From positions 620,001 through 684,000 of the forward strand of contig NZ_CP022415.1 of assembly GCF_002222635.1 (NCBI RefSeq): DNA of 64,000 bases. Reading direction: 5' to 3'. The notes beneath the pieces were generated by a model that was given only the letters and a program-made list of their open reading frames with translations, did not search any database and was not told where the DNA came from. The position numbers and the translations under genes were made by a program. The stretch comes from Pseudosulfitobacter pseudonitzschiae. GTDB lineage: Bacteria; Pseudomonadota; Alphaproteobacteria; Rhodobacterales; Rhodobacteraceae. Shown in pieces: positions 30,064-35,134 of the stretch. The number at the start of each line of letters is the position of its first letter. Position 1 is the stretch's first letter.

Positions 30064-30240
30064 TCACGGCACGGCCGCCCAGTGGTCGCGGATCAGCGGA
30101 AAACCCGTTTCGCGCCAAAACGTGGTCGAGACGGTGCCGGTCAGTTCGGCAAATCCGGTGTCCAGCGCACGGTTCAACCTGTCCAGATCGGCAGGCATCG
30201 GCATGCCGACAAAAAGCCTGCGCGGCGCATCCCAAAGCAC
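30064..30240 (-). CDS. Hypothetical 58-residue protein
   Basis: An open frame from GTG at 30240 gives a 58-residue product ending in WRETGFPLIRDHWAAVP. It has no membrane span and no recognised domain. Gaps of 38 bases to the SPFH gene and 33 to the cytochrome gene leave room for it and little else. The start is uncertain; the ATG at MPMPADLDR gives 46 residues. The protein-like composition and tight fit support it as a real gene, but weakly. Confidence 0.45.
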   Translation of the reverse strand: MLWDAPRRLFVGMPMPADLDRLNRALDTGFAELTGTVSTTFWRETGFPLIRDHWAAVP

Positions 30241-30278
30241 CGGATCGGGGCATAAAGTGCCTCCATCCCGGCCATCTT

Positions 30279-31394
30279 TTATGCTCCCGGCGGCGGCGGC
30301 GGCAGGATTGTGAACAGCTGTGCCAGCTCGGCCACGTCCTCTGCCCGCAGCCAGCCGTCCTGGCCTGCGGTCCAGACATAGCTGTCGCGGGTCAGCGCAC
30401 CCTCGGCTGCCATGCGGCCCAGAGACGCCTTGGAGAACGGGCCGGTGGTTTTGCCACCCTCTGCGATGTGCCAGACATGCTCGACCGGTGGCGGGGGCGG
30501 TGCGACGCTGGCAGGTGCGGTGCCTTGGGGCCGTGCCCCCCACGGGCCTGCGCCGCCTGCGACCGACTGGCCGATTTGCATGCCCAGACCGGCCCCCAGA
30601 CCGGTTTGCATTGCAGCCGCTCCAGCACCCTCGCGGCCCATCGCCTCGGCAGTCTGGAACTGCAAGTATTCGTTAAGGTTGCCGATCACACCCATCGAAG
30701 AGCGTTTGTCCATCACCGCCTCGACCGCAGGCGGAAGCGAGATGTTTTCAATGTAAAGCTCGGGCAGCATCAGGCCGTATTCGGCGATGACGGGTGCGAT
30801 CTGCTTGGCGACCAATGTGCCCAGTTCGCGGGTGTTGGCGGCCATGTCCAGCACGGGAATTCCAGCACCAGCCAAGGTGCGCGAGAATTCTTGCACGATG
30901 ATGTTGCGGATCTGGAAGCTGATTTCGTCCATCGTGAATTCGCCATCGGTGCCGACGATTTCCAGCAGGAATTTGGCCGGATCGGACACTTTGACCGAAT
31001 AGGTGCCAAAGGCGCGCAGACGCACGGGTCCGAACTCGGGGTCGCGGGCGATGATCGGGTTTTTGGTGCCCCATTTCAGATCGTTGAAACGGGTGGTGTT
31101 GACGAAATAAACCTCGGATTTGAAGGGCGATTTGAACCCGTGATCCCAATGCTGAAGGGTCGTCATGATCGGCATGTTATTGGTCTCGAGCATGTAGAGA
31201 CCGGGCGTGAACACATCGGCCAGCTGGCCTTCGTGAACGAACACCGCCGCCTGACCTTCGCGCACTGTCAGCTTGGCGCCGTATTTGATCTCGTGGCCAT
31301 GTCGCTGAAACCGCCAGACCATCGTGTCGCGGGTGTCGTCCGTCCAGTGGATGACGTCAATGAACTCGCCGGAGAGGAAATCGAAAATGCCCAT
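30279..31394 (-). CDS. SPFH-domain protein with C-terminal GYF_2 domain, YdjI-like
   Basis: The 371-residue protein starts MGIFDFLSGEFIDVIHWTDD. Its first 230 residues are the SPFH domain of the virion-core/YdjI type, including HGHEIKYGAKLTVREGQAAVF, FTPGLYMLETNNMPI and RLRAFGTYSVKVSDPAKFLL. A Gly/Ala/Pro linker follows (about 265-305), then a GYF_2 domain (VWHIAEGGKTTGPFSKASLG, about 315-365) that should bind proline-rich partners. A poly-Pro end (PPPPPGA) closes it. SPFH proteins scaffold membrane microdomains. In Bacillus the relative YdjI links PspA to the membrane. No PspA gene is in this window. Confidence 0.82.
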   Translation of the reverse strand: MGIFDFLSGEFIDVIHWTDDTRDTMVWRFQRHGHEIKYGAKLTVREGQAAVFVHEGQLADVFTPGLYMLETNNMPIMTTLQHWDHGFKSPFKSEVYFVNTTRFNDLKWGTKNPIIARDPEFGPVRLRAFGTYSVKVSDPAKFLLEIVGTDGEFTMDEISFQIRNIIVQEFSRTLAGAGIPVLDMAANTRELGTLVAKQIAPVIAEYGLMLPELYIENISLPPAVEAVMDKRSSMGVIGNLNEYLQFQTAEAMGREGAGAAAMQTGLGAGLGMQIGQSVAGGAGPWGARPQGTAPASVAPPPPPVEHVWHIAEGGKTTGPFSKASLGRMAAEGALTRDSYVWTAGQDGWLRAEDVAELAQLFTILPPPPPGA

Positions 31395-31514: not shown

Positions 31515-32471
31515 TTAAAGTGGCCCGTTCGTTCGTTCGCGGGCCAGAATGCGCACGATCGGCTCGGCTTTGGCCATGCTCATGCCGATATTCAGGCGAT
31601 CATCATATAGCATGCCCAGCAGCATTTCGTCGTGATCGGTCAGCAGCGCAAATTCGTCGTCGTCGTTAAAGATCGACGGGCGCGCCATCGGGCTGTCATT
31701 GGCCAGCCCCAAGCCTTGGGCCAGCTCTTCGTGAATGCACGACAGGCGCAAGAGATCGGGGTTTTCCGCACGGATCACCGCGACGGCGGCGGTATAGGTG
31801 TGCGGGTCGGGGCCGGTGGCATAGGCCGCCACGGCGCAATAGATGTCATCGCCAAGGTTCATCAGTGGCGCCAGCGACGCCTTGGTGATTCCCGGAATGC
31901 GGGTGGCTTGGGTGGTCAGTACCTCGGCGCGGTCGTCCTCGGAGACGAACAATACCAGAAAATTGGGCGCTGTGCCCATCGTCACGGGATGGCCCGTGGC
32001 ACGACCCAGTCGCGCGGCATAGCGGGTCACATCACTGCGATCCTGACGCTGTTGCGATGCGGGCACCGACCTGCCAAAGGCCACGCCCATGCGCACGGGA
32101 CCAGCCCAACGGCGCAGGCTGCCGGGCAGGCCCGATGCGCGGGTGCCCGCGCCATATTCGTTGAAAAACACGATCTGGTTAAAGTTTCGTGCCAGCATAT
32201 CGGCGCTGTACGGTGTGTCCGTGCCGCCGCCATCCTGACGCAGCAACCCTTGGGACAGCTGCGCCGATTGCACCTGCGCTAGATAGCTGCGCTTGGCGGC
32301 GCTTTCTTCGGAGGTGGGCAAAGCCACGCGGATCGGCGCGGCGTTGCGCTCGGGTCGTGCGCGCGGGGTCAGAACAGGCTCGACCGGGGCAATCAGATCG
32401 CAGGCAGCCACCGACAGGCCCAGCGCCAAAGCGCCAAACCAACCTGCCCCCCGCAATGCGACCGCACCCAT
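31515..32471 (-). CDS. DUF2927 lipoprotein
   Basis: The 318-residue protein starts MGAVALRGAGWFGALALGLS and has a lipobox SVAAC near residue 24, so it is probably a lipoprotein of the outer or inner membrane. The DUF2927 region runs over the rest, with NFNQIVFFNEYGAG near 110 and a striking CIHEELAQGLGLANDSP segment near 258. That segment resembles an HExxH zinc-protease motif in which the second His is Gln. It lies 4 bases after telA, so it is translated with it. Function is unknown. Confidence 0.75.
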   Translation of the reverse strand: MGAVALRGAGWFGALALGLSVAACDLIAPVEPVLTPRARPERNAAPIRVALPTSEESAAKRSYLAQVQSAQLSQGLLRQDGGGTDTPYSADMLARNFNQIVFFNEYGAGTRASGLPGSLRRWAGPVRMGVAFGRSVPASQQRQDRSDVTRYAARLGRATGHPVTMGTAPNFLVLFVSEDDRAEVLTTQATRIPGITKASLAPLMNLGDDIYCAVAAYATGPDPHTYTAAVAVIRAENPDLLRLSCIHEELAQGLGLANDSPMARPSIFNDDDEFALLTDHDEMLLGMLYDDRLNIGMSMAKAEPIVRILARERTNGPL

Positions 32472-32475
32472 CGTC

Positions 32476-33672
32476 CTAGCCCGGAACTGAGGTGCCAGCG
32501 GTGTCGCCTGTGCCGTCCTTGCGCGCTTTGGCCGAGGCCAGAGTATCGCGCAGGTCTGCTTCCATCTTCTTGAGATCCTCTTCGGCGGCGGCGCGCTTGG
32601 CCTTGCCTTCGTCGGCAATCTGCAAACTTTCCTGAATGGTGCCGATCAGATCTGCGTTGGCCTGTTTCACCGCTTCGATGTCGAACACGCCACGCTCCAT
32701 CTCGGTGCGGATCATCGTGTTGGTCTCGCGCAGGTTCTTGGCGTTCGAGGTCAGCAATTCATTGGTCAGATCGTTGGCATCGCGCACGGCTGTTGCTGCT
32801 TCGGCGCTGCGCTGCATGGTCACGGCTTGGGCCAGTTGGGTTTCCCACAGCGGCACGGTGTTCACGAGGGTCGAGTTGATCTTGGTCACCAGCGACTTGT
32901 CGTTTTCCTGCACCAGACGGATCGAGGGCAGCGATTGCATCGTCACCTGACGCGTCAGTTTCAGGTCATGCACACGGCGTTCCAGATCGTCGCGCGCGGC
33001 GCGCAGGTCGCGCAGTTCTTGCGCTTTCATCACCTGATCGTCTTCGGGGGCGGCTTTCACCTCGGCCTCTTTGGCGGGGATAACATCGGTGTCCATCTCT
33101 TCGATCTTGGCCTCGCCCGCCGCGATATACAGCGCCAGTTCATCGTAGAAATTCAGGGTCTTTTCGTACAGCAAATCCAGCGATTTGATGTCTTTCAGCA
33201 GCGTGTGTTCATGGTTCAGCAGGTTGTCGGTGATCTTGTCGATCTGTGCCTGAACGGTTTCGAATTTGGCGGTAAACTTGGCAAAGGGCGCGGCGCGGCC
33301 CAGCAGCTTTTCCCACCACGAACGGTCGCGGCGCACATCCAGTTCCGACACGCTAAAGCCGCGGATGGCCGACACGATACTGCGCAGGCTGTCGCCCGCC
33401 GGACCCACATCCTTGTTGCGTACATCCGTGAGCATGGCCTGCGAGATGGTCTGCAATTCTGCCTGCGCACCCGATCCGAACGACACAATCGACTGGGTGT
33501 CGGCCATGTCGATTTCGTCCATGCGCCTGCGGATTTCGGCGCTGACAGGGGCGTCGGCGTCTTTCAGCGCCACAATGGCGGTGGCCTCTTTCGGCTCGGG
33601 CAGGATCACCGCGTTGATTTGTTCAACGTCGGCCAGCGATTTTTCGGCCTTTTGGCGCACAGTCTCAGACAT
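32476..33672 (-). CDS. TelA-family toxic anion resistance protein
   Basis: This 398-residue protein is cytoplasmic and strongly helical. It starts MSETVRQKAEKSLADVEQIN. TelA marks include VSELDVRRDRSWWEKLLGRAAPF near residue 107, LLNHEHTLLKDIKSLDLLYEKTL near 150 and PLWETQLAQAVTMQRSAEAA near 280. A coiled-coil tail follows from about 345. TelA is linked to tellurite and other envelope-stress resistance in other bacteria, often beside XpaC as here. It starts 15 bases after the XpaC gene stop. A name such as telA would be family-based only. Confidence 0.88.
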   Translation of the reverse strand: MSETVRQKAEKSLADVEQINAVILPEPKEATAIVALKDADAPVSAEIRRRMDEIDMADTQSIVSFGSGAQAELQTISQAMLTDVRNKDVGPAGDSLRSIVSAIRGFSVSELDVRRDRSWWEKLLGRAAPFAKFTAKFETVQAQIDKITDNLLNHEHTLLKDIKSLDLLYEKTLNFYDELALYIAAGEAKIEEMDTDVIPAKEAEVKAAPEDDQVMKAQELRDLRAARDDLERRVHDLKLTRQVTMQSLPSIRLVQENDKSLVTKINSTLVNTVPLWETQLAQAVTMQRSAEAATAVRDANDLTNELLTSNAKNLRETNTMIRTEMERGVFDIEAVKQANADLIGTIQESLQIADEGKAKRAAAEEDLKKMEADLRDTLASAKARKDGTGDTAGTSVPG

Positions 33673-33687
33673 GTTCTATTCCTTAGT

Positions 33688-34596
33688 TCACCGGGTTTTA
33701 GGGGGCGCGATATGCACGCCTTCGCGCTTTAAACGGTCGCGCAGTACGTCGATTTCTACATTCAGATCGCTGCGGTCGTCCAACAGCAAGGCTTGGGTGC
33801 GCGCGTCAAAGTTCTGTTCCAGATCGTCCAGCAGGGCGGCATAGCCTGCGCGCGCCTGTGCATCGCGGGTGCGCGCATAGATGTCGGCAAACTTGATCGT
33901 CGCATCGCGCGCACCCATCAGATAAACACCCAGATAGCGCCGCGCAGCAGTCAGATCGCGGGGGTCTTCCTCGACGGTGCGGATCAGTGTGCGGGCTTTG
34001 GTCTGAAACTGGGCCAGGCGGGTTTCCATCTTGCGGTCATTCGCACGCAGCAGTGCATCGGACATTTCACGCAGGTATTTTTCGGCCTCGTCGACCACGC
34101 GGGCCACGCGGTCTTGTTGAAAGGTGTCGATGCCTTCCATGCCCTTGGATCGCAGCGGGTCCAGCCCGAATGCCGCCAGATGCAGACCACCAGCGATCAC
34201 GCCGTAGATGACGGACGACAGGATGTCGGTTTGATGGGTTACACCCGCCAGTATCGCACCCGCCGCCACGGCCACGCTGGCCAGTATCTTGCGCGGCAGG
34301 GCAGGGCGGCGCGCAATCTTGCGGTCGTGGAACGCGGCTTCGGCGCGCAGTCCTTCGCGGGTCAGCACTGCGGCCAGTGCCCAGACGGCCGCGCCCACCA
34401 GACCCGTGGCCAGTAATGCAGGGCCTTCGCCAAACGCGGTCAGCGCCAAGGCCAGAGGCGGCAAGAACATCAGGTTCGAGCGTAATCCTGCCGGATCAAC
34501 CTGCGCAGGCGCAGGCATCAATCCGCGTGGCTTGGAGGACGCACCGGGTGCGGTTTCATCCTCGGGGCTGTATTTACCGCCGTAACGCTGTGCCAT
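33688..34596 (-). CDS. XpaC-family (5-bromo-4-chloroindolyl phosphate hydrolysis) protein
   Basis: The 302-residue product starts MAQRYGGKYSPEDETAPGAS and overlaps the upstream small gene as TGATG; upstream reading in frame is not protein-like. Two hydrophobic pairs (about residues 42-75 and 105-140) place it in the inner membrane, followed by a soluble helical half (MEGIDTFQQDRVARVVDEAEKYLREM and onward). XpaC usually partners TelA, and the two are adjacent here. Its name comes from an old plate assay and says little about its real role. Confidence 0.82.
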   Translation of the reverse strand: MAQRYGGKYSPEDETAPGASSKPRGLMPAPAQVDPAGLRSNLMFLPPLALALTAFGEGPALLATGLVGAAVWALAAVLTREGLRAEAAFHDRKIARRPALPRKILASVAVAAGAILAGVTHQTDILSSVIYGVIAGGLHLAAFGLDPLRSKGMEGIDTFQQDRVARVVDEAEKYLREMSDALLRANDRKMETRLAQFQTKARTLIRTVEEDPRDLTAARRYLGVYLMGARDATIKFADIYARTRDAQARAGYAALLDDLEQNFDARTQALLLDDRSDLNVEIDVLRDRLKREGVHIAPPKTR

Positions 34597-34790
34597 CACT
34601 CGGCCCCCAACCAGCCAGAGCCTACGCCCAGCATCACCACCATCAGCAGACCAAAGGCGACCTTGGGGATCGCACCGCCGGGTGCGCCGCCTGACGAAGG
34701 TTTGGGTGTTTGGCGGAACACCGACGCCACAGCACCGGCGGCCACCACGATGGCCAGGATGAGAATCACGAAAAGGATCAGTCGGGACAT
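34596..34790 (-). CDS. Small two-span membrane protein heading the XpaC-TelA gene set
   Basis: A 64-residue protein starts MSRLILFVILILAIVVAAGA and has a second hydrophobic stretch (VAFGLLMVVMLGVGSGWLG) at the end with a Pro/Ser/Gly-rich link between. Its stop overlaps the XpaC start as TGATG, so it is coupled to it and is the first gene of the set. No enzyme motif is seen. A longer open frame to 34832 has no better start. Confidence 0.6.
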   Translation of the reverse strand: MSRLILFVILILAIVVAAGAVASVFRQTPKPSSGGAPGGAIPKVAFGLLMVVMLGVGSGWLGAE

Positions 34791-35134
34791 TGCGCGTCCT
34801 TTGTTTAGCAGTGGCCCTATACATACGCGCACCGCTGCGTTTTACCAGTGGGCAGCATTGTTTGATGCCGGTCAATCCCCCCTTGGTCCGGTGCGCGGCG
34901 CTACATTCGGCTTGCGCGAAATGCTTGACCGGATGACCCCGACCGCGACACGCAGAATAACCGGAAAATGAAATGCCGTCTTCGATATCGGGATGATTTC
35001 ATAGCCATATAGATGCCAAATGGATGGTTGTGCGTATCAGCTACCTCAAGATTGTGACAAATAAAACGGGGCACAAGGGGGAAAGTTCCCGATTGTGCCA
35101 CTGTTACAAGGTTTGTCCGGTCGGGGGGCGTGGT
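34791..35134. other. Gene-free 344-base stretch holding the promoter of the XpaC-TelA gene set
   Basis: I find no supported reading frame on either strand. The stretch is less GC-rich than its neighbours at 34961-35080 and should carry the leftward promoter for the gene at 34790. Nothing more specific, such as an operator or terminator, is clear. The downstream end abuts the stop of the pseudouridine synthase gene. Confidence 0.5.

Follow-up and report, generated by a model that had tools for sequence, protein, structure and literature searches.

We describe here a gene for a fused SPFH-GYF protein in Pseudosulfitobacter pseudonitzschiae (Rhodobacteraceae), located in a 64,000-nucleotide stretch of the genome (assembly GCF_002222635.1, contig NZ_CP022415.1, positions 620,001 to 684,000; called the window, in whose coordinates all positions are given). 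The gene runs on the minus strand from an ATG at 31394 to a stop codon ending at 30279 (Table 1), and its product joins an SPFH domain to a GYF_2 domain flanked on both sides by runs of proline.

Domain architecture

Both domains were assigned with Pfam far above the curated cut-offs: Band_7_1 (PF13421) with 340 bits against a cut-off of 24 (E 5.1e-102) and GYF_2 (PF14237) with 70.6 bits against 25.8 (E 9.1e-20), the latter being the sole GYF_2 match in the whole genome (profile search). They are separated by a Gly/Ala/Pro-rich linker at approximately residues 250 to 304. No 19-residue window of the protein reached 1.6 on the Kyte-Doolittle scale (maximum, 1.09), which indicates a protein without a membrane segment. 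The full-length AlphaFold model was of moderate quality (predicted local distance difference test [pLDDT], 65.5) and fell below 50 at the linker (249 to 302) and the tail (364 to 368). Foldseek with this model returned 29 PDB matches at an E value of ≤0.001, those listed for the SPFH part being HflK/C, stomatin, prohibitin, flotillin, and QmcA, with the top ones from solved complexes; template modeling scores normalised by query were ~0.23 to 0.35, on an underlying model of pLDDT 65.5. An original prediction, made from the letters of the window, had proposed an SPFH domain, a Gly/Ala/Pro linker, a GYF_2 domain, and a polyproline end, and Pfam, sequence, and fold models bear out this order.

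Polyproline tracts accompany the GYF domain

A set of 121 distinct SPFH-GYF proteins, 120 of them complete, was used for counting. PPP and PPxP both occur between the GYF domain and the stop in 120/120 complete proteins, and PPP occurs within 40 residues ahead of the domain in 116/120. Among SPFH relatives without GYF, PPP was found in the last 140 residues of 0/17; an 18th (L159), which has PPP, was set aside as a frame-split copy with GYF in the next open reading frame (ORF). This locus, from the same phylum, has its SPFH and GYF parts in two overlapping frames.

In an alignment of 79 sequences (excluding two of the 80 named loci: L061, cut at a contig end, and L075, whose start is missing), tail prolines P365 to P369 are invariant (79/79); in the tract ahead of GYF, P299 is invariant and P300 to P303 are conserved at ≥90%. 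The tail prolines are invariant despite 55 codon patterns among the 79 loci and are thus held at the protein level. Slippage on a CCG repeat was rejected as the origin of the tail on the same count of patterns, pure CCG being present in 5 loci. With a crude ORF caller that recovered ~50 of the SPFH genes, PPP was found in the last 15 residues of 51 ORFs out of 1,111 called in the window together with 80 named loci; 49 of these were the SPFH gene and one (L075) was a fragment of it. The rate in other ORFs was 1/1,061, so the polyproline end is not due to chance.

The tail is 9 to 12 residues long in 104/120 complete proteins, which places the tract a few codons ahead of the stop. Polyproline stalling of ribosomes is established, and the terminal PPPPP could act in translation (ribosome slowing with relief by EF-P, for instance in timing release or co-assembly), with the GYF domain unrelated to it. 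We regard this as very unlikely, as it explains neither the second tract ahead of GYF (116/120) nor the absence of tracts from SPFH relatives with other end modules.

GYF fold and binding signature

The original prediction was to be abandoned if a structure model lacked the GYF fold, and the fold holds: residues 291 to 371, modelled as a fragment, gave a mean pLDDT of 81.5, and GYF domains of GltJ, Smy2, and GIGYF were among the top PDB matches. The Foldseek order was 7z3c (the GltJ GYF domain), a chloroplast TIC chain, and the Smy2 GYF domain with a proline-rich peptide (3fma). The chloroplast TIC complex chains matched were 8z9y_E, 7vcf_Q, and 7xzi_F.

The canonical proline-binding signature of GYF domains reads W-x-Y ... 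GPF-x4-M-x2-W-x3-GYF. The window protein keeps W308 and GPF, with the Y, W, and GYF positions replaced, so that the signature is only partly kept and is not present in full. The retained part is uniform in the family: an aromatic residue at 308 and an intact GP[FY] occur in 123/123 distinct SPFH-GYF domains, and F or Y occupies GPF residue 320 in each of them, versus in 4/13 other GYF_2 domains. Because tract and GYF occur together, we suggest that proline recognition has been retained, perhaps through a variant surface.

Our preferred reading, which we hold tentatively and rate somewhat short of probable, is that the GYF domain recognises the polyproline tract of its own family, probably between protomers. 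Several observations weigh against it. The final triplet of the signature is GAL in the window protein; residue 310 is I, V, or L in 98% of the family (Y is found there in 10/13 other GYF_2 domains); and residue 328 is M in 72%, K in 13%, and W in 8%, where GYF domains of the canonical kind carry W. PPP lies ≤30 residues downstream of 3/14 GYF_2 domains outside SPFH proteins, and the 3 other domains trailed by PPP carry L or V, not F, at the GPF position. Block 71 to 80 of the fragment model, which contains the tail, averages pLDDT 67, and tail residues 364 to 368 fall under 50 in the full-length protein. Lastly, a tree of 69 SPFH cores (52 GYF rows, with L159 counted as GYF; 18/52 from outside the family) requires just 2 changes of GYF label, so few independent events lie behind the tract contrast of 120 versus 0.

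The partial loss of the canonical signature and the low confidence of the tail in the full model would suit a GYF domain that binds a partner encoded elsewhere or that works through a non-proline surface; in that case the prolines on either side would be stiff spacers or weak competitors that close the site until the partner comes. Other ligands may exist, since 70 sites in the genome fit a five-proline codon pattern (any frame, overlaps counted singly), 2 of them within the SPFH-GYF gene. As a catalogue of ligands, this genome-wide PPPPP list was dropped because 70 sites are too many. We consider such a partner possible but doubtful: a terminal tail is unable to space domains, yet its prolines are invariant, and they are missing where GYF is missing.

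Exchange of the C-terminal module

The C-terminal module of these SPFH proteins has been exchanged between lineages. Pfam identified four examples of GYF-less Band_7_1 relatives with other ends, namely SHOCT (L013, L171), HTH_17 (L168), and a double zinc ribbon (L177); the end modules of the remaining relatives were assigned by eye and with simple patterns. The SHOCT and HTH groups cluster together beside the GYF rows in the SPFH-core tree, which has some long branches and some weak forks and does not fix the direction of exchange.

A separate gene for a zinc-ribbon protein, the usual neighbour of the SPFH-GYF gene, also adjoins three SPFH genes that have an HTH-type end and no GYF, so its link to the SPFH protein needs no GYF. 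One of the three ends is HTH_17 by Pfam (L168:3565-4722) and two are HTH_17 by sequence (L169, L170), all still beside the zinc-ribbon gene. Judged from its end module, an HTH_17-ended SPFH protein might touch DNA.

Distribution and gene neighbourhood

The SPFH-GYF gene is ordinary and widespread. Its nearest named relative is that of Pseudosulfitobacter koreensis (95% identical), and the best 80 of at least 574 encoded relatives were kept. At least 26 genomes of the window's family (its own included) carry a Band_7_1 gene, and 1 (G499) among those listed is without; beyond the listed genomes, 325 further ones have no Band_7_1 match.

The usual cassette is XpaC-TelA-DUF2927-SPFH-zinc-ribbon. 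Across 94 loci with matches (L001 and L006 both being the window's own genome), the zinc-ribbon gene was found in 89, TelA in 85, DUF2927 in 81, and XpaC in 75, counts that are depressed by short loci; no other neighbour accompanies the SPFH gene as constantly as the zinc-ribbon gene does. Seven GYF-bearing genomes belong to the class but not to the family; TelA adjoins the SPFH gene in 5 of them, and L183 and L184 have no TelA beside it over the 8.5 to 9 kb covered. GYF-bearing loci farther away mostly have the zinc-ribbon gene adjacent (none was seen in the single genome of L135/L151) and showed no TelA over the stretches covered, which are mostly short (L182 = 8.5 kb).

Table 1. Features of the SPFH-GYF gene and its cassette in the window
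Feature	Position	Strand	Basis
SPFH (Band_7_1)-linker-GYF_2-PPPPPGA protein, 371 aa	30279..31394	-	Pfam; alignment of 79 sequences
Band_7_1/SPFH domain, residues 26-236	30687..31319	-	Pfam; Foldseek
GYF_2 domain, residues 308-357	30324..30473	-	Pfam; fold model
Polyproline tract PPPPP ahead of GYF, residues 299-303	30486..30500	-	Sequence, alignment, SPFH-GYF counts
C-terminal polyproline tail PPPPPGA, prolines 365-369	30282..30302	-	79/79 invariance, codon patterns
Zinc-ribbon protein, one C-terminal hydrophobic segment	28273..29385	-	Weak Pfam match under cut-off
DUF2927 putative lipoprotein	31515..32471	-	Pfam on longer ORF 31515-32618; LSVAAC near N-terminus
TelA family protein	32476..33672	-	Pfam; sole TelA match in genome
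XpaC-type protein (PF10112)	33688..34596	-	Pfam on longer ORF 33688-34875; three hydrophobic stretches
Small hydrophobic membrane protein, upstream of XpaC	34596-34790		Sequence

Conservation of the cassette would suit a GYF domain that binds proline-rich stretches of its neighbours (XpaC, DUF2927, the small membrane protein) and so assembles them, and the original prediction had credited the small membrane protein and DUF2927 with such stretches. These were not found: the small membrane protein has 4 Pro and no PP, and DUF2927 has 21 scattered single Pro and no PP. XpaC has two PP and no PPP, and the SPFH-GYF protein alone carries PPP among nine window proteins checked. Counts among homologues in the named loci, which include ≤12 residues ahead of the presumed start and a few matches there, were 79/79 for SPFH, 24/76 for DUF2927, 16/75 for the zinc-ribbon protein, 4/71 for XpaC, and 0/74 for TelA. 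The DUF2927 and zinc-ribbon counts speak for contacts with neighbours, and the counts for TelA and XpaC, like the lack of PPP in the window's own neighbours, speak against them. DUF2927 is moreover a putative lipoprotein, probably extracytoplasmic: its lipobox-like LSVAAC would place its linker beyond the cytoplasm, while the SPFH protein has no hydrophobic segment. Tracts in zinc-ribbon proteins, which directly precede the first zinc ribbon, occur sporadically and, among the N-termini compared, were seen outside the family in L155 and L159 only. We therefore think assembly of the neighbours improbable. Of the original prediction, the general idea of assembly through GYF-proline contacts keeps its appeal (tract with GYF in 120/120 versus 0/17), and the partners that it named, having no PP, fall away.

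Some narrower candidates were also rejected: recruitment of TelA by GYF (PPP in 0/74 homologues), recruitment of the zinc-ribbon protein through its N-terminus (16/75, none in the window's), and a role in anti-phage defence, for which PADLOC gave no match at E ≤0.001 among 5 cassette proteins scanned. Zinc-ribbon homologues in four loci (L069, L071, L105, L108) have a PPPPP run resembling the SPFH protein's own tract, and the window's homologue has none. NCBIfam gave no match among 7 proteins scanned. A promoter scan of the region found no promoter-like site, and terminator-like sites numbered 11 versus a mean of 7.0 in shuffles. ORFs similar to the small membrane protein were found by blast in 9/94 loci, many of which stop short of that position. 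An open stretch at 30064-30282, between the SPFH and cytochrome b561 genes, had blast matches solely in L001 and L006, both of them the genome of the window, and is probably not a gene.

Proposed mechanism

We propose that SPFH domains line up next to one another on the inner surface of the cytoplasmic membrane, where the zinc-ribbon protein is a candidate membrane anchor. Each GYF domain would hold a PPP(P/L)P tract, that of a second protomer or its own, and would thereby give the assembly its cohesion from the position taken by SHOCT, HTH_17, or zinc ribbons in relatives. The wider picture, of SPFH-GYF proteins as self-cohering scaffolds in which GYF clasps the next protomer's PPP(P/L)P tail and this lock is swapped for SHOCT, HTH_17, or zinc-ribbon modules across lineages, is speculative, and we would put it forward as a possibility that is on the whole unlikely. 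If true, bacterial GYF_2 would gain a same-chain ligand and a function, that of closing SPFH assemblies or linking them. The GYF, SHOCT, HTH_17, and zinc-ribbon ends would make up a comparative set with which the function of the end module in proteins of the YdjI type could be approached.

Comparison with known systems

The combination of SPFH and GYF is visible in domain databases. A literature search, with subscription papers outside its scope, found among the titles listed and the text available no description of an SPFH-GYF fusion and nothing joining GltJ and GYF; the GYF_2 titles listed mostly concern GIGYF2. GltJ (AgmX) of Myxococcus xanthus is not known to have an SPFH domain. Its GYF domain (PDB 7z3c) is the closest solved one, by profile (E 1.3e-5) and as the top Foldseek match; unlike the window protein, GltJ belongs to the gliding machinery. 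The GYF domains of Smy2, CD2BP2, and GIGYF share the fold, and W308 and GPF are kept in the window protein, whereas the second half of their signature (W..GYF) is mostly replaced in its family. GYF domain pairs occur in planctomycete conflict systems, in a paper whose available text has SPFH solely in the reference list (PMC7159879).

Band-7 proteins of phage shock protein (PSP) neighbourhoods likewise combine SPFH with small end modules (zinc-ribbon, SHOCT) in a context of membrane stress, as available text of a survey describes; its main text contains neither "GYF" nor "TelA" (PMC11237479). A 24-mer is described for a bacterial SPFH protein in the available portion of PMC10936438.

The SPFH-GYF protein resembles YdjI, encoded in the pspA-ydjGHI operon of Bacillus subtilis. 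According to the available text of PMC8581546, YdjI is an SPFH protein that is soluble and has a zinc finger close to its end; it depends on YdjG and YdjH for its placement at the membrane, is itself required for PspA foci there, and influences fluidity. The window protein likewise has no membrane segment. A zinc-ribbon membrane partner is encoded near YdjI (PMC11237479, available text), and the cassette's zinc-ribbon protein, with its C-terminal hydrophobic segment, is a candidate counterpart of YdjG. The two systems differ in that YdjI ends in a zinc finger and the window protein in GYF_2, and in that YdjI has PspA as a partner and the window cassette has XpaC and TelA instead. Identity with a PspA operon was rejected, as PspA_IM30 (PF04012) had no match at E ≤0.001 in the window's genome; a TPM-domain partner (as in YdjH) is absent from the operon, the single TPM match in the genome being ~1.14 Mb away. 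We read the SPFH-GYF protein as a YdjI-like soluble SPFH scaffold in an XpaC-TelA-zinc-ribbon cassette. The available text of PMC12791056, on Listeria, discusses an XpaC-TelA-like operon in relation to bacteriocin exposure and cites a TelA mutant whose susceptibility to nisin is 4-fold higher. On the model of YdjI in B. subtilis and TelA in Listeria, the cassette is likely to serve in envelope maintenance.
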